Assembly (NCBI GenBank): GCA_016176415.1
Contig: JACOXH010000004.1
Coordinates: forward strand, 1-50,403
Source of the DNA: Candidatus Daviesbacteria bacterium
GTDB lineage: Bacteria > Patescibacteriota > Microgenomatia > Daviesbacterales > UBA10151
Direction of reading: 5' to 3'
Length of the DNA stretch: 50,403 bases
Below the pieces are notes generated by a model that saw only the letters and a list, made by a program, of their open reading frames with translations, made no database searches and was not told the DNA's origin. Below are positions 32,301 to 41,600 of this stretch, in pieces (the first letter of the stretch is position 1; every line of letters starts with the position of its first letter). The translations under genes were made by a program, and so were the position numbers.

Positions 32301-32939
32301 ATGAGAACTGTAGGACAAGTTTTAAGAGAAGAAAGAGAAAAGAAGTTTTATACCCTGGAAGAAATAGAAAAAGCCACCAAAATCAGAAAAGAGCTGCTTG
32401 AGGCTTTGGAAAAAGGGCAATATGCAAAACTTCCTCCACCAACTTTTATACAGGGATTTATCAAAAATTATGGTAAATTTTTAGGGTTAAATCAGGAAAA
32501 GCTTTTGGCTATTTTCAGAAGGGAATTTGCTGAAAGAACGCATCCTCCCAGAATTTTGGATTCTTTTGCTGACCCTTTGGATAAAAAAGGCTTCAGGATT
32601 ACCCCTGCCAGAGCATTGGGAGCAGTAATTTTGTTTTTGGTAATGATATTTTTTGTTTACCTCTGGATAGAATACAGATTCTTAGTGGGAGGGCCGTTTT
32701 TGGAAGTTGTTGAGCCAGTTAATCAGATTAGTGTTAGTTCTGAAATGATTGAAGTATCAGGCAGAACTGATCCGGAAGTAAAATTAAGTATAAATAATCA
32801 GGAAATTGGGGTAGATTATCAGGGGAAGTTTTCCCAGGAAATTAAATTATCAGATAATATAAATAATATAGAAATAATTGCCACTTCAAAGAGTGGCAAA
32901 ACAACCAAAATAGAAAGAACAGTGTTTTTAAAGAAGTAA
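32301..32939 (+). CDS. rodZ: RodZ-like helix-turn-helix membrane protein
   Basis: 212 aa. N-terminal HTH_25/RodZ-type domain (residues 1-75: VGQVLREEREKKFYTLEEIEKATKIRKELLEALEKGQYAKLPPPTFIQGFIKNYGKFLGL), a juxtamembrane basic linker, one membrane helix (about 105-125) and an outer Ig-like beta domain (about 135-212: VEVSGRTDPEVKLSINNQEI). RodZ links MreB filaments to the elongation machinery and shapes cells. The outer domain is of the type found in secreted bacterial Ig modules. A TATAAT lies 11 nt before the ATG. Confidence 0.78.
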   Translation: MRTVGQVLREEREKKFYTLEEIEKATKIRKELLEALEKGQYAKLPPPTFIQGFIKNYGKFLGLNQEKLLAIFRREFAERTHPPRILDSFADPLDKKGFRITPARALGAVILFLVMIFFVYLWIEYRFLVGGPFLEVVEPVNQISVSSEMIEVSGRTDPEVKLSINNQEIGVDYQGKFSQEIKLSDNINNIEIIATSKSGKTTKIERTVFLKK

Positions 32940-32959: not shown

Positions 32960-33247
32960 ATGGATTTTTTGCAGGTAGCTTTAATTTTTTTAATTGTACT
33001 TTTGTCTATTTTTCTGGCTATCACCGGAATTCAGGTATTTTTAATTTTAAGGGATTTAAAAAAGGCTCTGGATAAATTTAATCAAATACTGCAAACAGGG
33101 GAAAATATAGCAGAGGATATCGAAAAACCGGTGGCAGCAGCCAGCAATTTAGTAACAGGAGGAGCTCAAGTAGCTTCAGATGCAGCTAAAGTATTGGGCA
33201 AAATCTTAAAACCAAAACCAAAAAGATTCTACAAAAAGGTTCTTTGA
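32960..33247 (+). CDS. Small membrane protein with amphipathic tail
   Basis: 95 aa: one N-terminal membrane helix (about residues 5-27), then amphipathic helices (LRDLKKALDKFNQILQTGENIAEDIEKPVAAASNLVTGG) and a basic end (KPKPKRFYKKVL). Resembles DUF948-like small coat or anchor proteins in layout, with no diagnostic motif. A TATATT lies 7 nt before the ATG. Its stop overlaps the promoter region of alaS. Function unknown. Confidence 0.6.
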   Translation: MDFLQVALIFLIVLLSIFLAITGIQVFLILRDLKKALDKFNQILQTGENIAEDIEKPVAAASNLVTGGAQVASDAAKVLGKILKPKPKRFYKKVL

Positions 33248-33249
33248 GC

Positions 33250-33255
33250 TATAAT
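33250..33255 (+). promoter_or_regulatory. -10 box of alaS, leaderless spacing
   Basis: TATAAT exactly 6 nt before the ATG at 33262, which supports that start over the upstream TTG at 33244. Confidence 0.6.
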
Positions 33256-33261
33256 AGCTTC

Positions 33262-35040
33262 ATGACATCCAGTGATATTAGGAAAAAGTATATAAAGTTC
33301 TTTATAGATAAAGGACATAAGGAGATTGCACCGGCCAAATTAGTGCCGGAAAATGATCCGAGTACACTTTTCACTTCATCCGGCATGCAGCCATTAGTTC
33401 CTTATCTCTTGGGCCGAACCCATCCGGCTGGCAAAAGATTGGTTGATTCCCAGCCCTGTTTTCGGGCTGAGGATATTGAAGAAGTGGGAGATAATCGGCA
33501 TACCACATTTTTTGAGATGTTGGGTAATTGGTCCTTGGGAGATTATTTTAAAAAAGAACAACTATCCTGGATTTGGGCATTCTTCAGAGAAGAATTAGGT
33601 TTACCCCAAGAGAGGTTGTATGTATCTGTATTTGAGGGTAGTAATGGGGTGCCTAAAGATACTGAAAGTTATGAAATCTGGAAAAGTCTGGGGCTGTCGG
33701 AGGATAATATTTATTTTTATGGTGTAGAAAAAAACTGGTGGTCAAGATTCGGTGCTCCTGACAAGATGTCTGTTGGTGAAATCGGCGGACCGGATAGTGA
33801 GATGTTTTTTGAATTTACTCAAGTTGAGCATGATCCAAAATATGGGAGTAGTTGTCACCCAAATTGTGATTGCGGCAGATTTTTAGAAATAGGCAACTCT
33901 GTTTTTATTCAGTATCAGAAACAGGGGGATGGCTCCCTAAAGGAGCTTTCGCAGAAGAATGTGGATTTTGGCGGAGGACTGGAAAGAATAACTGCAGCAA
34001 TGAACGATGCTCCTGATGTTTTTAAGACTGATTTATATGAGTCAATTATTCAAACAATTGAGACAGTTACAGGAACAAAATATGAAATGGAAAAAGAAAA
34101 AATGCAGGTAATTGCTGATCATGTTAGAGGTTCAGAGGCATTAATAAAAGATGGGGTAATTCCTTCAAATAAATTACAGGGGTATATATTAAGAAGGCTA
34201 CTAAGGCGTTCTGCTGTAAAACTTAGACAAATTAATAAAGATATTAAATTAAATGAACTGGCAACAGTAGTAAGTGATGAATCAGTTAAAGCAGTTATCA
34301 ATGAAGAAATGGACAGATTCTCCAGAACTTTGGATCAGGGTCTTAAAGAAATTACAAAGATCGAAAGCATAGATGGTAAAAAAGCTTTTGATCTACATCA
34401 AACTTTTGGCTTTCCTTATGAGGTGACTGAAGAGTTGTTCAGGTACAAAGGACAGGAGATTGATAGGGAACAATTTAAAGCAGAGTTTGAAAAACACAAA
34501 GAGTTGTCCAGAACTGCTTCAGCTGGAATGTTTAAGGGGGGATTGGCGGATAATTCAGAAATAGTTACAAAATATCACACTGCCACTCACCTGCTGCATC
34601 AGGCTTTAAGGGATGTGTTGGGGCCACAAGTTTTTCAAAAAGGTTCTAATATAACTTCTGAAAGACTCAGGTTTGATTTTTCCTTTGATAGAAAATTAAC
34701 TGATGAAGAAATTAGAAAAACAGAAGAAATTGTAAATAAAAGAATAGAGGAGGATTTAAAGGTAGACAGAAAAATTGTAAACCCTAGTGAGGCAAAAGAG
34801 ATTGGTGCCATTGGGTTGTTTGATGAAAAATATGGGTTAGAAGTCAGTATTTACGGAATCGGGCCGGGGTTTGCTCCGGATTCAAAAGCCAAAGACCAGC
34901 GTGACCGTGGAGGTTATTATTCTTTAGAATTTTGCGGAGGGCCCCATGTCGAACATACAGGAGCGATCGGAAAGATTAAAATTGTCAAAGAAGAAGCAAT
35001 CTCTGCCGGTATACGCAGAATTCGTGCACAACTTGCATGA
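33262..35040 (+). CDS. alaS: Alanyl-tRNA synthetase, C-terminally short
   Basis: 592 aa, against about 875 in most bacteria. Charges tRNA-Ala and edits mischarged Ser/Gly. Catalytic core: TSSGMQPLVPYLLG, QPCFRAEDIEEVGDNRHTTFFEMLGNWSLGDYFK, and GGGLERI; tRNA-recognition helices follow. The editing domain is present with HTATHLLH and CGGPHVEHTG zinc ligands. The C-Ala/DHHA1 dimerisation and tRNA-binding domain is missing altogether, so the enzyme is probably monomeric. A loop around CHPNCDCGRF carries a Cys/His cluster that may bind zinc. Stop TGA. Confidence 0.93.
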   Translation: MTSSDIRKKYIKFFIDKGHKEIAPAKLVPENDPSTLFTSSGMQPLVPYLLGRTHPAGKRLVDSQPCFRAEDIEEVGDNRHTTFFEMLGNWSLGDYFKKEQLSWIWAFFREELGLPQERLYVSVFEGSNGVPKDTESYEIWKSLGLSEDNIYFYGVEKNWWSRFGAPDKMSVGEIGGPDSEMFFEFTQVEHDPKYGSSCHPNCDCGRFLEIGNSVFIQYQKQGDGSLKELSQKNVDFGGGLERITAAMNDAPDVFKTDLYESIIQTIETVTGTKYEMEKEKMQVIADHVRGSEALIKDGVIPSNKLQGYILRRLLRRSAVKLRQINKDIKLNELATVVSDESVKAVINEEMDRFSRTLDQGLKEITKIESIDGKKAFDLHQTFGFPYEVTEELFRYKGQEIDREQFKAEFEKHKELSRTASAGMFKGGLADNSEIVTKYHTATHLLHQALRDVLGPQVFQKGSNITSERLRFDFSFDRKLTDEEIRKTEEIVNKRIEEDLKVDRKIVNPSEAKEIGAIGLFDEKYGLEVSIYGIGPGFAPDSKAKDQRDRGGYYSLEFCGGPHVEHTGAIGKIKIVKEEAISAGIRRIRAQLA

Positions 35041-35097: not shown

Positions 35098-37395
35098 ATG
35101 AGCTTCCTTGATAAAGTTACTGCCTTTTTGCCCTTAGGAAAAAAGGAAGAACAAACAGAACATTTTTTTGCTTTAAGTATCGGGACAGAAAAACTGACAG
35201 CCGCCCTTTGGGCTATCGAAGGCAATCAGCTGAAAATTTTAAGTACCGCTTCAGAGCAATATTCCTCCACTGATGAGATTGTGACAGCTTCTGACAAGCT
35301 TTTGGATGCAGTTTTGGGACTTAAAGAAATTGAACCTCAAAAAATCCTTTTTGGAGTGCCCCATTCCTGGGTGACAGACGACAATCTAAAAGATGAACAT
35401 CTTAAAACTTTACGTGTTTTGGTAAAAGAATTGGAACTTTCGCCAATGGCTTATGTGACTACCAGTCAGGCTTTGGTGCACTTTTTAGAAAAGAAAGAAG
35501 GGGTTCCCACAACTGCAGTTTTAGTAGGTTTTGAGAAAAAATACTTAACAGTAACAGTGGTAAGGGCAGGGAAATTAGACGGGGTAAAAGTGGTGGCCAG
35601 AGGAGAAACGGCGGGGGCAGATATAGAAAAAGCGCTGCTTGCTTTCACAGATGTGGAAACTTTACCTTCAAAGATTTTAATTTACGGTGAAGGTTCCAGA
35701 GAGCTGAAGAGCCAGTTGTTATCTTTTTCCTGGATGTCAAAGCTGTCATTTTTGCATTTTCCCAAAATAGAAAGTCTGGAGGATGATCTGGAAATCAAAA
35801 GCGTTTGTCTGGCAGGGGGGTCGGAGATAAACGAAGGAATTGTCTACAACAACAAAGTTGTTGCAAGCTTCGCTTACAAAGATCAAAAAATTGCAGAATC
35901 AGAGAAATCAGAAAATTTGATTGAACCGGAAGAGCCGGAAAGTACAGAGGTCAGCAAACAAGAAGATTCTGACACACTGACAGAACTAAACACTGAAACA
36001 CAGGAAAAAGATGATTTTGGTTTTGTAGTAGGTGATGTGGCCAAACAAGATACCAGCGAATCAGAAAAGTCAGAAGAAACAGAAGATACTGAAACACCGA
36101 TACACCAATCCGTTGACGCGCCGGAAGAAAAAGAATTAGCAGTGCCGGATGAAAGCCCTTTAGAAATTGAGGATTTTGAAGAAGAAAGGGTAGCGCCGAC
36201 AGAAAGAGTTAAAGGAGAGCGTAAATTTAAAATTCCTTTCACCAAATTTATTCCCGGAAACTTTACAATGATGGTAGCGCTGATTGGTGTAGTTGGTGTT
36301 TTTGTTTTAACTTTAGGAGCTTATGCATTTTTACTTAAAGCAAATGTAAAAGTTTTTGTTGAACCTAAAGTCTTGGAAAGAGATGCCCAAGTCATTGCAG
36401 ACCCGAATCAAAAAAATATTGATGAAGAAAAGAAAGTAATTCCGGGGCAAATAGTTCAAACAGAAGTATCAGGTTCAGCTAAAGATAGTGCCACCGGTAA
36501 AAAGCAAATTGGTGATCCTGCTAAAGGAGCTGTTAAAGTTTATAATGCAACTGACCAACAAGTAACTTTAAAAGCTGGACAAGTGCTGACTACTGATAGT
36601 GGAATAAAATTTAAGTTAGATAAGGATGTTCCTATTGCTTCAAAATCTGCTAGTGCTGCTTCTCCACCGTCCGTTTCTGATTCAGTAGGAGCAACTGCAG
36701 TAGCGATTGGAGCAGATGGCAATATTCCTTCTGCTGTGGAGCTTAAAGTAGGTAATTATTCTAAGTCGGATGTTGTAGCTAAATCAGAAGGCAATTTTTC
36801 CGGAGGCACTTCTAAAGATGTGACTGTTGTATCGAGCGAAGATCAACAAAGGCTGCTGGCTAAGCTTTCATCAGATTTAAGGAAACAAGCCCAACAGAAA
36901 TTGCAGGAAAAACACCCTGATAAAAAGATTTTACAGGAGGCATTATCTGAATCAATTGCTTCAAAAAGCTTCAGTAAAAATATCAATGATCAGGCTGGTG
37001 AGTTTTCGCTCAATCTGACAGTCAGATACAAAGGCACTGCTTTTGACGATGCGGATTTAAGAACAATTGTTTCAAAGTTAGTTAATACTGATGTACCCGA
37101 AGGTTTTCTTTTGGATTTAAATCAAACTGAAACTCAGGCAGATGTGGCAAAGCTGGAAAAAGACGGTAAGGTAATATTTTTGGCCAGATTTAAAGCAAAA
37201 CTGATGCCAAAAATTGATACTGATACAATCAAAAATCAGATTAAGTTTAAAACTGCTACAGAGGTAGCTAATATGTTAAAGAGTATGGATAATATTTTAG
37301 GCTCTGAGATTAGCACAACCCCCTCTTTGCCCAAAATACTGGAGCGTATGCCTGTATTGGGTAAAAATATCACTGTTGAAGTTGGACTCAAATGA
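35098..37395 (+). CDS. Fusion of PilM/FtsA-like actin-fold domain and baseplate-J-like outer domain
   Basis: 765 aa. Residues 1-235 read as an actin-fold ATPase of the PilM/FtsA type (FFALSIGTEKLTAALWAI, KILFGVPHSWV, TAVLVGFEKKYLTVTVVRAGKL, RGETAGADIEKALLAF, VCLAGGSEI), although the phosphate-1 loop is weak. A very acidic Glu/Ser/Thr-rich linker follows (about 260-370), one membrane helix (about 389-412), then an outer region (about 440-765) of which VKVYNATDQQVTLKAGQVLTTDSGIKFKL and the Ser/Gly-rich repeats resemble baseplate J/gp47-like domains named in CPR genomes. Two palindromic hairpins lie in frame at 35847-35875. The stop overlaps the sortase ATG. Confidence 0.6.
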   Translation: MSFLDKVTAFLPLGKKEEQTEHFFALSIGTEKLTAALWAIEGNQLKILSTASEQYSSTDEIVTASDKLLDAVLGLKEIEPQKILFGVPHSWVTDDNLKDEHLKTLRVLVKELELSPMAYVTTSQALVHFLEKKEGVPTTAVLVGFEKKYLTVTVVRAGKLDGVKVVARGETAGADIEKALLAFTDVETLPSKILIYGEGSRELKSQLLSFSWMSKLSFLHFPKIESLEDDLEIKSVCLAGGSEINEGIVYNNKVVASFAYKDQKIAESEKSENLIEPEEPESTEVSKQEDSDTLTELNTETQEKDDFGFVVGDVAKQDTSESEKSEETEDTETPIHQSVDAPEEKELAVPDESPLEIEDFEEERVAPTERVKGERKFKIPFTKFIPGNFTMMVALIGVVGVFVLTLGAYAFLLKANVKVFVEPKVLERDAQVIADPNQKNIDEEKKVIPGQIVQTEVSGSAKDSATGKKQIGDPAKGAVKVYNATDQQVTLKAGQVLTTDSGIKFKLDKDVPIASKSASAASPPSVSDSVGATAVAIGADGNIPSAVELKVGNYSKSDVVAKSEGNFSGGTSKDVTVVSSEDQQRLLAKLSSDLRKQAQQKLQEKHPDKKILQEALSESIASKSFSKNINDQAGEFSLNLTVRYKGTAFDDADLRTIVSKLVNTDVPEGFLLDLNQTETQADVAKLEKDGKVIFLARFKAKLMPKIDTDTIKNQIKFKTATEVANMLKSMDNILGSEISTTPSLPKILERMPVLGKNITVEVGLK
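35847..35875. repeat. Tandem hairpins in the actin-fold gene
   Basis: CAACAAC-AAA-GTTGTTG (35847-35863) followed by AAGC-TTC-GCTT (35865-35875). Both have 3-nt loops. The arrangement and the AAGC..CGCTTA end match lepA (10301-10328) and the intergenic copy at 49825-49849. Confidence 0.6.
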
Positions 37396-38033
37396 AATAT
37401 GGGACAAAAGTAATATCTGTAGGCTTTCTGGCAGTGGGAGTTTTTGCGCTGATGCAGGTAATTCTACCCATTACTTCGTTTCAAATCTGGTCATTTGCCC
37501 AAAAATTTAATAATCAAATACTAATAAGTCCAATTAAATCCAGCGAGCAAATTTTGGGAGTTTCAGTTCAAAATACGGGGAATTTTCCCAGTATTGTTTC
37601 CACCCTAACCCGGGCTACAAAGCCAAACTATGATAGATTTCAAATTTCCATACCCAGACTTAAGATGGAAAGTAATTTGGTGTACGTAGATAGCAATGAT
37701 TTAGACCGGGGTTTGGCGCAGCTGCCAGGTTCAGCTTTGCCGGGAGAAAGAGGAAACTTATTTATTTCCGGCCATTCTGCCTTAAACCGTTTTTTACCCA
37801 GCCAGAATGCTCCTTTTGCAAAACTTACTGATATGAAAAAAGGGGATGAGATTATCATAAAAGCTTCCGGAACAACCTTTTTATATAAAGTGGTAGAAGT
37901 AAAAGTAGTTGATCCTTCTGATGTATCTGTAATTTTACCTCCGGATAAACAGGGTAGATATGTTACGCTGATGACTTGTGTGCCGCCGGGATTAAATTTT
38001 AAAAGACTAATCGTGATTGGGAAAATGGTATAA
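37392..38033 (+). CDS. Sortase
   Basis: 213 aa. Cysteine transpeptidase that cleaves a sorting signal and attaches proteins to the surface. N-terminal membrane helix (about residues 7-30) as signal anchor, then the sortase barrel with IPRLKMESNLVYVD, the catalytic His in FISGHSALNRF, the catalytic Cys in TLMTCVPPG and the Arg in FKRLIVIG. It is closest in outline to class D/E housekeeping sortases. Overlaps the fusion gene by 4 nt (ATGA), so they are co-translated. No clear LPxTG substrate is seen in this window. Confidence 0.88.
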   Translation: MKYGTKVISVGFLAVGVFALMQVILPITSFQIWSFAQKFNNQILISPIKSSEQILGVSVQNTGNFPSIVSTLTRATKPNYDRFQISIPRLKMESNLVYVDSNDLDRGLAQLPGSALPGERGNLFISGHSALNRFLPSQNAPFAKLTDMKKGDEIIIKASGTTFLYKVVEVKVVDPSDVSVILPPDKQGRYVTLMTCVPPGLNFKRLIVIGKMV

Positions 38034-38067: not shown

Positions 38068-38074
38068 AATGTTG

Positions 38075-38080
38075 TATCAT
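38075..38080 (+). promoter_or_regulatory. -10 box of ruvX, leaderless spacing
   Basis: TATCAT exactly 6 nt before the ATG at 38087, supporting that start over a TTG at 38069. Confidence 0.5.
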
Positions 38081-38086
38081 GTTGTG

Positions 38087-38464
38087 ATGAAGTACTTAGG
38101 GGTTGATTTTGGACTGAAAAAAATAGGTCTGGCTGTTTCTGAAGGCGAGTTCGCTTCTCCCTGGCAGATAGTGAAAGTAAAAAATATACCTGATGCTGTA
38201 GGGAAAATTGGAAGTATTATAGAAAAAGGCAGTTTCCCAAAAGTTATAGTGGGGTTACCGGAAGGGAAAATGGAGAAAAATGTCATAGGTTTTGTGAAGG
38301 CTTTAAAAAAGAGGGGTTTTGAGGTGGAAACTGCCCCTGAAACACTGTCTTCTAAAAGGGCTTTGAAAAGTATGATTGAACAGGGGGTGAGGCAGAAAAA
38401 GCGCAGGGAAGAAGATGCTTATTCTGCAGCAGAAATCCTACAGCAGTTTTTGGACAATCAATGA
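38087..38464 (+). CDS. ruvX: YqgF/RuvX-type Holliday junction resolvase homologue
   Basis: 125 aa. RNase H-fold nuclease, involved in 16S rRNA 5' maturation in several bacteria and named a putative resolvase. YLGVDFGLKKIGLAVSE with the first catalytic Asp, KVIVGLPEGKM, the acidic ETLSSKRA region and the final acidic EEDAYSAAEILQQFL. Length is typical. The stop overlaps the mltG start by 4 nt (CAATGA). Confidence 0.9.
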   Translation: MKYLGVDFGLKKIGLAVSEGEFASPWQIVKVKNIPDAVGKIGSIIEKGSFPKVIVGLPEGKMEKNVIGFVKALKKRGFEVETAPETLSSKRALKSMIEQGVRQKKRREEDAYSAAEILQQFLDNQ

Positions 38465-39435
38465 AAAAACTTATAATTTTTATAGCACTTATAATACTTA
38501 TCTTTTTTCTGGCCAGAGGTTGGTGGAGCAGGCAATTAAATCCGGTTTCTCAAGACACATCAACTGGGGGCGCCTCCGGCACTAAAGTATTTGTAGTGGC
38601 AAAGGGAGCAGGGGTTTCTGAGATTGCCAAAAAATTAAAAGAAGATAATTTAATCAGGTCGGAGCTAGTTTTTAAACTTTATGTGAGACAAAATAATCTT
38701 ACTGATAAACTGCAGGCAGGTTCATATAAGTTATCCCCTGCTATGTCTACACAGGAAATTTTAAAAACCTTGCAATCCGGTAGTGAGGATGTTTGGGTTA
38801 CTTTAATAGAGGGTTGGAGAGTGGAGGAGATGGCAGAAGAGATAAGTTCAAAGTTCAAAGTTCAAAGTTCAAAGTTTTTGGAAAATGCAAAAGAGGGATA
38901 TATGTTTCCGGATACTTACTTATTTCCTAAAGAAGCCACAGTGGAATATATTACGGATACTTTAAAAAACACTTTTGATACCCGTTTAACAGATGATTTG
39001 AAAGCAAAAATTAAATCCAAAGGACTTACAGTAGAACAGGGAGTAATTTTGGCATCAATTGTGGAACGGGAGGGAAGGTCTGATAATGTCAGGAAAATGA
39101 TAGCATCAATACTTTTAAAAAGATTTAATATTGACATGGTTTTAAATGCTGATGCTACTATCCAATATGCTTTAGGGTATCAAAATGAGGAAAAAAGCTG
39201 GTGGAAAAGACACTTAAGTAGAGAAGATTTAAAAGTAGAATCCCCTTATAATACTTATTTGTATATTGGTTTACCTCCCAAACCGATTGCCAATCCCTCG
39301 CTATCTTCTCTTCAGGCAGTAGGGAATGCAGACCCTTCTACGCCTTACCTTTATTACTACCATGATTCAAAAGGGAATTCATATTATGGTAAAACCTTAG
39401 AAGAGCACAACAAAAACGTTGCCACTTACCCCTGA
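38461..39435 (+). CDS. mltG: MltG-type endolytic transglycosylase
   Basis: 324 aa. Cuts nascent glycan strands at the membrane. Membrane helix at residues 2-20, LysM-like domain (about 40-105: AGVSEIAKKLKEDNLIRSELVFKLYVRQ), then the YceG core with the catalytic Glu in LASIVEREGRSDNVRKMIASILLKRFN and ADATIQYALG, ESPYNTYLYIGLPPKPIANPSL. In between lies a perfect 4x TTCAAAG repeat (38847-38874) that codes SSKFKVQSSKF; loss or gain of one unit would shift the frame. Overlaps both neighbours (ruvX, 4 nt; Nudix gene, 1 nt). Confidence 0.92.
   Translation: MKKLIIFIALIILIFFLARGWWSRQLNPVSQDTSTGGASGTKVFVVAKGAGVSEIAKKLKEDNLIRSELVFKLYVRQNNLTDKLQAGSYKLSPAMSTQEILKTLQSGSEDVWVTLIEGWRVEEMAEEISSKFKVQSSKFLENAKEGYMFPDTYLFPKEATVEYITDTLKNTFDTRLTDDLKAKIKSKGLTVEQGVILASIVEREGRSDNVRKMIASILLKRFNIDMVLNADATIQYALGYQNEEKSWWKRHLSREDLKVESPYNTYLYIGLPPKPIANPSLSSLQAVGNADPSTPYLYYYHDSKGNSYYGKTLEEHNKNVATYP
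38847..38874 (+). repeat. Perfect 4x TTCAAAG tandem repeat inside mltG
   Basis: Four exact copies of the 7-mer TTCAAAG. The unit is not a multiple of 3, so gain or loss of one copy frameshifts mltG before its catalytic core. Confidence 0.85.
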
Positions 39436-40289: not shown

Positions 40290-41600
40290 ATGCTCAAATT
40301 AGACCAGCGTGGCATTGTTGCCCAGGCTTTAATCTTAATCCTCCTTATTTTAGGAGCAGTAGTAGGAGTGTATTTGGTCCAAAACAGGACTAATTTATTT
40401 CCCAAAGCCGGTGGTTCTGCTCCTCTAGGCCCTGAAACAAGTTTTAGTTTGCTTGGTCCCAATGATTGTCCGGGATTTTTTGTTTGTACCATGCAGTACA
40501 TTTTCCCTCCCGATAAAGGAGAGGAATTTGAGGTTAAATTATTTGCCCGTTCAGATATAGAAGAAGCAAACCTTTTTACTGCCAAAATGGATTTCCCAAA
40601 AGACTTGGTAGAAGTAAAAGAGATTAAGACAAAGGATAGTTTTATTAAAAACTGGGTGGAAGAATACTATGATAATAGTACAGGAAAGATCAGTCTTTCC
40701 GGAGGAGTGCCTAATCCTGGATACAAAACCCAATTAGGGCAGCCTAGCAGTTTGGTGGCTGTTATAGTATTTGAAGCCAAAGCATTAGGAAAAGGAGCGC
40801 TATCTTTAACTGATGATTCAGCCATTTACTCCAATTTAAACAATATCAATATTTTAACCATTAAAAGAAATTATGGTATTTCTATAGAGATGGATCCTCA
40901 ACCCACACCAGTTGCCTCACCAAGTAGTTGTTCAGAGAATTTAGCTTTTAAAAAACCAGTAACCTCAAGTGGTTACTGGGAAGATGGAAAGCCAGAAAGA
41001 GCTGTTGATGGAGATTTGGGAACAGCATGGAGAACAAATAGGTCTACTGGAGCATGGCTTACGGTAGATTTGGCAAACAATACAAATAATGTATTAAACA
41101 TTGGTCGGGTTAAATTAATCTGGTTATGGGATGACCGTTTTGGTAGTCAAGCTACCAGTAAAATAGAGGTCAGTACAGACGGCAAAAACTGGACTGATGT
41201 AGCCACAACCACCTTAACTAAAGCTACTAATGAAAGAGAAATGCAAACTCTGGATTTTCCTTCCGTGTCTGCACGCTATGTCAGGTTTTATGGAGAGCAG
41301 TGGAATGGCGGTTGGGCTGATATGCAGACATTCGAAGTTTACAGTGCTGGGTGTCAGCAAAGCCCTTCCCCCACTCCCACATTAATCCCCAAACCTAAGG
41401 ATAAAGGTGATGGGAATAAAGATGGAAAAATAAACTTAATAGATATGTCTGTACTTCACACTGATTGGAATATAGATAAAGATATAAAGAAAACAATCAG
41501 GGAAGGAATAGATATGAATAATGATGGACTGATTAACACTGCAGACTTTGCAGCGTTAAGGCAACTGCTTCAAGATCTTAAAGTCATCAAAGTAAAATAA
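40290..41600 (+). CDS. Cohesin-discoidin-dockerin surface protein
   Basis: 436 aa. Hydrophobic N-terminal signal/anchor (about residues 8-30), a cohesin-like beta domain (about 60-200: EEFEVKLFARSD, TAKMDFPKDLVEV, LVAVIVFEAKALGKGALSL), a Ser/Pro break, an F5/8 type C (discoidin) carbohydrate-binding domain (about 213-352: NLAFKKPVTSSGYWEDGKPERAVDGDLGTAWRT, ARYVRFYGEQWNGG), a Pro-rich linker and a dockerin-like double calcium loop (about 373-430: DGNKDGKINLIDMSVL and DMNNDGLINTADFAAL). Cohesin and dockerin bind one another in cellulosomes, so this protein could polymerise with itself or take up dockerin proteins such as the one at 5762. Exported. Confidence 0.85.
   Translation: MLKLDQRGIVAQALILILLILGAVVGVYLVQNRTNLFPKAGGSAPLGPETSFSLLGPNDCPGFFVCTMQYIFPPDKGEEFEVKLFARSDIEEANLFTAKMDFPKDLVEVKEIKTKDSFIKNWVEEYYDNSTGKISLSGGVPNPGYKTQLGQPSSLVAVIVFEAKALGKGALSLTDDSAIYSNLNNINILTIKRNYGISIEMDPQPTPVASPSSCSENLAFKKPVTSSGYWEDGKPERAVDGDLGTAWRTNRSTGAWLTVDLANNTNNVLNIGRVKLIWLWDDRFGSQATSKIEVSTDGKNWTDVATTTLTKATNEREMQTLDFPSVSARYVRFYGEQWNGGWADMQTFEVYSAGCQQSPSPTPTLIPKPKDKGDGNKDGKINLIDMSVLHTDWNIDKDIKKTIREGIDMNNDGLINTADFAALRQLLQDLKVIKVK

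Follow-up and report, generated by a model that had tools for sequence, protein, structure and literature searches.

A membrane protein of Microgenomatia joining an actin-like domain to a J-type barrel, and its two-gene counterpart across Patescibacteria

We analyzed a 50,403-nucleotide (nt) stretch of a Candidatus Daviesbacteria genome (contig JACOXH010000004.1, positions 1 to 50,403; hereafter the window), from the class Microgenomatia of the Patescibacteria, or Candidate Phyla Radiation (CPR). At 35,098 to 38,033 the window encodes a 765-residue protein that crosses the membrane once, followed by a sortase. Outside the class, the two halves of this protein are encoded by neighboring genes. 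Our preferred reading, held tentatively and a little short of even, is that an envelope scaffold of two proteins, nearly universal in sampled Patescibacteria, is here fused into one; its likeliest role would be to keep cell wall factors in place or to position them. The bitopic architecture, an actin-like domain, an acidic linker, one membrane helix, a J-type barrel and an alpha/beta part, is well supported; its function we infer from genes alone. The open reading frames (ORFs) 35098-37395 (765 aa) and 37392-38033 (213 aa) share the 4 nt ATGA, so that the start of the sortase sits within the stop codon of the gene before it. A first-pass annotation of this DNA had described this overlap and the same succession of inner domain, acidic linker, membrane helix and baseplate-J-like outer domain, and both descriptions are confirmed. 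The features of the two genes are:

35098..37395, forward strand: fused pseudo-actin/J-barrel bitopic membrane protein, 765 aa
35155..35862, forward strand: residues 20-255, degenerate actin-like domain (FtsA/PilM superfamily) on the cytoplasmic side, lacking the residues of the ATP site, predicted from hhalign, a motif census and fold matches
35863..36246, forward strand: residues 256-383, acidic linker, 40 of 128 residues D or E (31%), in a low-confidence part of the model
36016..36039, forward strand: residues 307-314, short linker motif FGFVVGDV, a proposed docking motif, from a census of the pattern GF..D
36247..36348, forward strand: residues 384-417, membrane helix, the sole segment whose mean hydropathy across 19 residues exceeds 1.6
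36505..36807, forward strand: residues 470-570, extracytoplasmic J/GlxA-type beta-barrel (Pfam Baseplate_J, profile match to diffocin TRI-2, VIA)
36808..37392, forward strand: residues 571-765, helix and alpha/beta C-terminal part, orthologous to split J proteins by hhalign
37392..38033, forward strand: sortase with N-terminal membrane anchor, H128, C196 and R205 present (PF04203, E 1.9e-23)

Outside Microgenomatia the outer half is encoded alone. In 31 of 40 loci from other classes the J gene directly follows a gene of the FtsA/PilM superfamily, which is a separate ORF in 30 of them and in one (L125) shares a single ORF with the alanyl-tRNA synthetase gene alaS. That open frame (G366:C11:54500-68500) encodes 1004 aa and could reflect either a genuine fusion or an error in the sequence. 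The outer halves of fused and split proteins align by hhalign at E 3e-80 over 373 columns. The fused N-terminal domain aligns with 17 split FtsA-like proteins at a probability of 99.7 (E 8e-27) with two deletions, while ten column-shuffled controls gave probabilities of at most 0.48%. Because both halves are homologous to neighboring conserved genes, we read the window's gene as a fusion of two neighbors. Both sets of 40 loci, split and class, are a non-random choice from the matches listed (roughly the best 150 each). Two members of the split set (L064 and L070) were placed there by position; the N-domain profile labelled 15 of 20 proteins, not including these two, and both match a later profile for which they served as training sequences.

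Every one of the 45 family genomes, which span 32 genera, encodes the fused protein, as do 273 of 281 genomes of the class (233 of 236 in the high-quality subset), and many matches span almost all of the 744-position model. Conservation on this scale far exceeds what chance would give. The same profile matches 227 of 286 genomes in the phylum sample, and among the matches listed outside the class it covers chiefly the linker, membrane and barrel half. A profile of the separate outer proteins matches 276 of the 286 genomes, and 249 of the 253 of high quality. Several of the ten genomes without a match are incomplete; others look complete. The fused gene is a core gene and not a phage relic. This survey of relatives covers Patescibacteria; a single-sequence scan of genome contigs returned three close relatives.

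The inner domain belongs to the actin superfamily by way of the split proteins. No PilM or FtsA family of Pfam matched the window's fused protein, a phmmer search with it against PDB gave no match, and the class-wide fused-protein profile (A3) found no actin-family match in PDB. The 17 split proteins match structures of FtsA (E 9e-28) and PilM (E 3e-17), and the assignment therefore depends on these intermediates, which link the fused domain to FtsA and PilM where direct searches are silent. The PilM/FtsA likeness proposed in the first-pass annotation thus stands at the level of the superfamily. Structure prediction of both halves, also proposed there, gave mainly actin/Hsp70-superfamily folds and a J barrel from AlphaFold2 models of low confidence, built with four sequences (pLDDT 42 for the N-terminal model and 48 for the outer one) and trusted around the barrel only. 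VIA placed FtsA first for the N-terminal model (Z 9.1), while Foldseek ranked Ppx/GppA above FtsA. Since the VIA Z scores of the FtsA, NTPDase, ROK and Hsp70 rows are almost equal, the model backs the superfamily and not a family within it. One genome encodes, in addition to its normal fused copy, a 491-aa protein that matches the fused N-domain and has no J half (L113, G022:C10:7500-19000).

The fused domains have lost the residues of the ATP site. The phosphate-1 aspartate is retained in 14 of 17 split proteins, 2 of 29 fused proteins of the family and none of 19 from the class; for the phosphate-2 aspartate the counts are 16/17, 0/29 and 0/19 (P0001 is counted in the family and class sets alike). 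The fused proteins also show erosion of the glycine-rich adenosine motif. We therefore read the fused domain as a pseudo-actin. Control of a surface structure by ATP state inside the cell, as had been suggested, appears unlikely for the window's protein given these residues; the split systems are not touched by this argument. The larger of the two deletions in the fused domain corresponds to an insert resembling FtsA subdomain 1C, in a stretch aligning to about residues 90-165 of FtsA, with limits of 1C that we assume. The SHS2_FTSA profile matches one of the 17 split proteins. Judged from these alignments, both the ATP-site residues and the 1C-like insert appear to have been lost after fusion.

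In a tree of 28 locus proteins, 13 FtsA, 11 PilM and 4 MreB, the actin-like proteins of the locus form one group (100/99), separate from FtsA, PilM and MreB of the same phylum. The PilM labels of L151-L157 come from their length and their grouping with L054-L057. Four genes downstream of mltG were considered as PilM and rejected, as Pfam assigns them to MreB. A separate PilM above the Pfam cut-off occurs in 43 of 45 family genomes, and 29 of 30 genomes have a separate FtsA with a match of E 2e-22 or stronger. The sequences thus place the locus protein as a third paralogue beside a genuine PilM and FtsA, and not as the genome's FtsA.

The outer barrel is shared with phage baseplates and with a cellular protein. 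Pfam Baseplate_J matches residues 473-571 above its curated cut-off (E 3.2e-5), over positions 21-110 of the 255 in PF04865 only, and the class profile matches the diffocin baseplate protein TRI-2 (E 2.4e-5). The best VIA match of the barrel model was Streptomyces GlxA (Z 12.0, root-mean-square deviation 2.2, 95 aligned residues), and baseplate proteins of P1, A-1(L), phiCD508, Mu and diffocin scored Z 9.4-10.9. The model indicates a true J relative that is just as close in fold to the GlxA domain. As phage baseplate and GlxA both match, the barrel is a module common to phages and cells. No relative of the whole outer part was found by tblastn among phage records or in a scan of viral contigs. 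The phage-baseplate-like surface structure of the first-pass annotation therefore shrinks to a barrel of about 100 residues.

The linker motif recurs across the fused proteins. The GF..D pattern is found in 28 of 29 family linkers and 13 of 19 class linkers, where shuffled linkers expect 0.20 and 0.12; it is absent from one family row and six class rows, and a pattern resembling it is found in just 3 of 40 split tails. Most split J proteins begin with a cytoplasmic alpha/beta domain of about 80 residues (for example L069 5873-7591, residues 1-85), for which a Pfam scan of 20 split J proteins gave no family. It is detected at E <0.02 in 30 of the 31 split J proteins with an FtsA-like neighbor (10 of the 31 trained the profile) in six of the nine without, and in none of 48 fused rows (best E 0.034; P0001 counted twice). 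We considered this tail as a docking domain and did not adopt the idea, its association with the FtsA-like neighbor being loose.

The sortase looks active from its sequence, with catalytic His, Cys and Arg in 49 of 49 aligned sortases. It scores above the cut-off of the general sortase model TIGR01076 and below those of the class C, D, E, F and GN models. In class loci outside the family the sortase begins within 120 nt after the fused gene in 39 of 40 (3.7 kb away in L080). Within the family, 31 of 45 genomes have it adjacent to the fused gene and G019 has it 1.8 kb away; none was found downstream on the contig in 13, one of which (G002) ends at a contig edge. Among 23 family loci with an adjacent sortase, the overlap is 4 nt in 18 and 1 nt in two, and a gap separates the two genes in three. 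The pair is thus conserved through the class, as a survey over the CPR proposed in the first-pass annotation would ask; beyond it, no sortase match was found in any of the 40 split loci. The sortase was added to the locus at the level of the class. One sortase family, fam000526, is reported in part of PMC6744442 to be present in almost all Microgenomates and patchily distributed among other CPR, which fits the locus sortase, by distribution only; the account of fam000526 in that part of the paper mentions no J or actin partner.

Few canonical LPXTG anchors were detected. The LPXTG anchor family PF00746 has no match in the window's own genome (84% complete), where a search for sortase substrates had been proposed. 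It is above cut-off in 5 of 45 family genomes, with 11 weak-or-better matches in 10 of the 45; five of the 11 have another sortase within about 1.2 kb, and the locus sortase adjoins none of them. The fused protein itself has a single helix, in mid-protein, and no C-terminal sorting signal, which together with the 13 family genomes that have no adjacent sortase speaks against the earlier idea that the sortase anchors it. The second sortase of the window's genome (L158, G000:C13:16000-32325) adjoins a PEGA-domain protein, MreB and two glycosyltransferases (GT1-type and WecG/TagA). In genomes G041 and G008, by coordinates, an actin-family gene of similar length is located about 2 kb from a second sortase.

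The locus is embedded in a supercluster of housekeeping genes that includes PNPase, RNase J, alaS, rpoBC and rpsL/rpsG. The gene order in the window is FtsK, Sua5, a RodZ-like protein, a 95-aa ORF, alaS, the fused protein, the sortase, ruvX and mltG, with rpoB, rpoC, rpsL and rpsG farther downstream. The context genes are:

32301..32936, forward strand: RodZ-like protein, HTH_25 (E 2e-22) and a Glucodextran_B-like outer domain (E 2.9e-13), both by Pfam
33244..35040, forward strand: alaS, alanyl-tRNA synthetase, the constant upstream neighbor (Pfam tRNA-synt_2c, E 6.5e-105)
38069..38464, forward strand: ruvX (Pfam RuvX, E 1.4e-22)
38461..39435, forward strand: mltG (YceG), peptidoglycan lytic transglycosylase (Pfam YceG, E 1.4e-78)

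We take HTH_25 to be the N-terminal domain of RodZ. Among the class loci of other families, alaS lies upstream on the same strand within about 1.6 kb in 38 of 40, and mltG downstream in 39 of 40. In the split loci, mreB follows mltG in four of 40 (L069, L071, L136 and L137); mreC follows mreB in L069 and L071, the two loci in which the next gene was scanned, and L069 also has a PBP2-type transpeptidase. The link to the cell wall that these neighbors (mltG, RodZ-like, FtsK and, in the four loci, mreB) provide is suggestive only. In L084 (9440-10723) a pyrimidine-nucleoside-phosphorylase-like gene lies between the sortase and mltG, and ORFs of similar length occupy the same place in several class loci. 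Elsewhere in the window, one protein (40290-41600) carries a galactose-binding F5/8 type C domain together with a dockerin type I domain, a combination that is unusual in a small CPR genome.

The fused protein resembles GspL and PilM-PilN in layout and, by the features compared, is a member of neither. According to parts of PMC3815138 and PMC4471445, GspL of type II secretion has a PilM-like cytoplasmic domain, one membrane helix and an outer domain, and BfpC also carries a PilM-like domain; the statement in the first-pass annotation that known PilM-like proteins are fully cytoplasmic is thus mistaken. The fused protein has the PilM-like cytoplasmic domain in common with GspL/EpsL and BfpC, and the single helix and outer domain with GspL. 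It differs from GspL in its J/GlxA-type barrel and alpha/beta outer part and in its separation from the PilM clade, and no secretion genes were found among the window proteins scanned with Pfam, which are part of the window's ORFs. In PilM-PilN, as in the split pair, an actin-like protein and a bitopic partner are encoded side by side, but the locus protein is a third paralogue and the split J tail bears its own alpha/beta domain. FtsA is the best structural match of the split partner, yet the genomes carry a separate FtsA, and the fused form has neither the 1C-like insert nor the ATP residues. Baseplate J/gp47 and GlxA (PF04865, PF21110) share the barrel (VIA Z 9-12); unlike J/gp47, the protein here holds part of PF04865 only and is a membrane-anchored cellular protein in a housekeeping cluster with no phage or contractile-system context.

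We propose that a bitopic protein with an outer J/GlxA-type barrel pairs with an FtsA/PilM-superfamily protein at the cytoplasmic side of the membrane. The actin-like half would dock on the tail of the membrane protein and multimerize it, and physical contact between the two is presumed. In Microgenomatia the fusion would make docking permanent, probably yielding a constitutive docking and oligomerization platform, which the GFVVGDV linker motif, perhaps a docking peptide, might close. The outer barrels may form a collar. Such a scaffold could hold MltG, the RodZ/MreB machinery and, in Microgenomatia, the sortase at one membrane site, as the neighborhood suggests, with a working logic like that of GspL or FtsA-FtsN.

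Several observations weigh against this scaffold reading. In nine of the 40 split loci (L072, L073, L075, L118, L122, L123, L126, L129 and L130) there is no FtsA-like gene beside the J gene, so the outer protein may act without an FtsA-like partner; in three of them a phosphoglucose-isomerase-like gene lies between alaS and the J gene (L072 4313-5527, L073 7967-9130, L126 8063-9229). Because the region is a housekeeping supercluster, the neighborhood can mean mere shared expression, and mreB is adjacent in so few of the split loci. Residues 571-765 (195 aa) have low model confidence and no assigned fold.

A role in a pilus or secretion system, as a GspL-type assembly platform whose actin-like part docks a traffic ATPase while the outer part guides subunits, is in our view doubtful. 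The layout is that of GspL, to which the separate proteins PilM and PilN of type IV pili correspond, and such pili occur in CPR according to part of PMC6744442; the separate PilM of 43 of 45 family genomes and the distinct clade of the locus protein count against it, as does the absence of traffic ATPase, platform and pilin families from the window proteins scanned. A ferredoxin-like periplasmic domain was not recognized in the C-terminal part, which is modelled with low confidence. We consider it improbable that the Microgenomatia protein is mainly a sortase scaffold, concentrating sortase and substrates at one membrane site. An adjacent, often overlapping sortase with an intact triad (39/40 outside and 31/45 inside the family) is what this would predict, but the J protein extends far beyond the pairing, sortases are missing from the 40 split loci, 13 family genomes keep the protein without an adjacent sortase, and LPXTG anchors are rare and never beside the locus sortase.

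The neighborhood could also reflect operon inertia only, with the protein serving at the surface in some unrelated way, for instance in host contact or in envelope integrity. The housekeeping supercluster and the persistence of the outer protein in the nine loci where no FtsA-like gene is adjacent fit this idea, to which we likewise give a low probability, since fusion and a recurrent FtsA-like neighbor indicate a working pair. Least credible, and very improbable, is the trans-envelope device of the first-pass annotation, in which ATP turnover inside controls a sortase-anchored, phage-baseplate-like surface structure. The J-type barrel, the actin-superfamily domain and the conserved adjacent sortase are as it would have them; the fused proteins have no ATP-site residues, phage relatives were not found, the context is housekeeping, the protein has no sorting signal, and a sortase is not adjacent in 13 of 45 family genomes or in any of the 40 split loci. 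The original observation therefore holds, while its interpretation is partly supported.

Returning to the envelope scaffold, we hold it evenly balanced whether Patescibacteria carry a further actin-family system besides FtsA, MreB and PilM. This would consist of an FtsA-like protein and a bitopic J-barrel partner, belong to the core of the phylum and organize envelope growth; in Microgenomatia it would have been welded into one protein, its actin turned pseudo-actin and a sortase recruited. We found no description of the protein or the pair in the open-licence PMC literature, including PMC10633639 and PMC11665869, where an unnamed entry in supplementary tables is possible. The greater interest lies beyond the window, which holds the fused, ATP-less form of a phylum-wide membrane protein with an actin-family neighbor. 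Fusion with loss of the ATP site is a natural experiment on the role of the actin-like half. A membrane family found in 276 of 286 sampled genomes, with a dedicated actin-family neighbor, is a strong candidate for a part of core CPR envelope biology that is largely uncharted.

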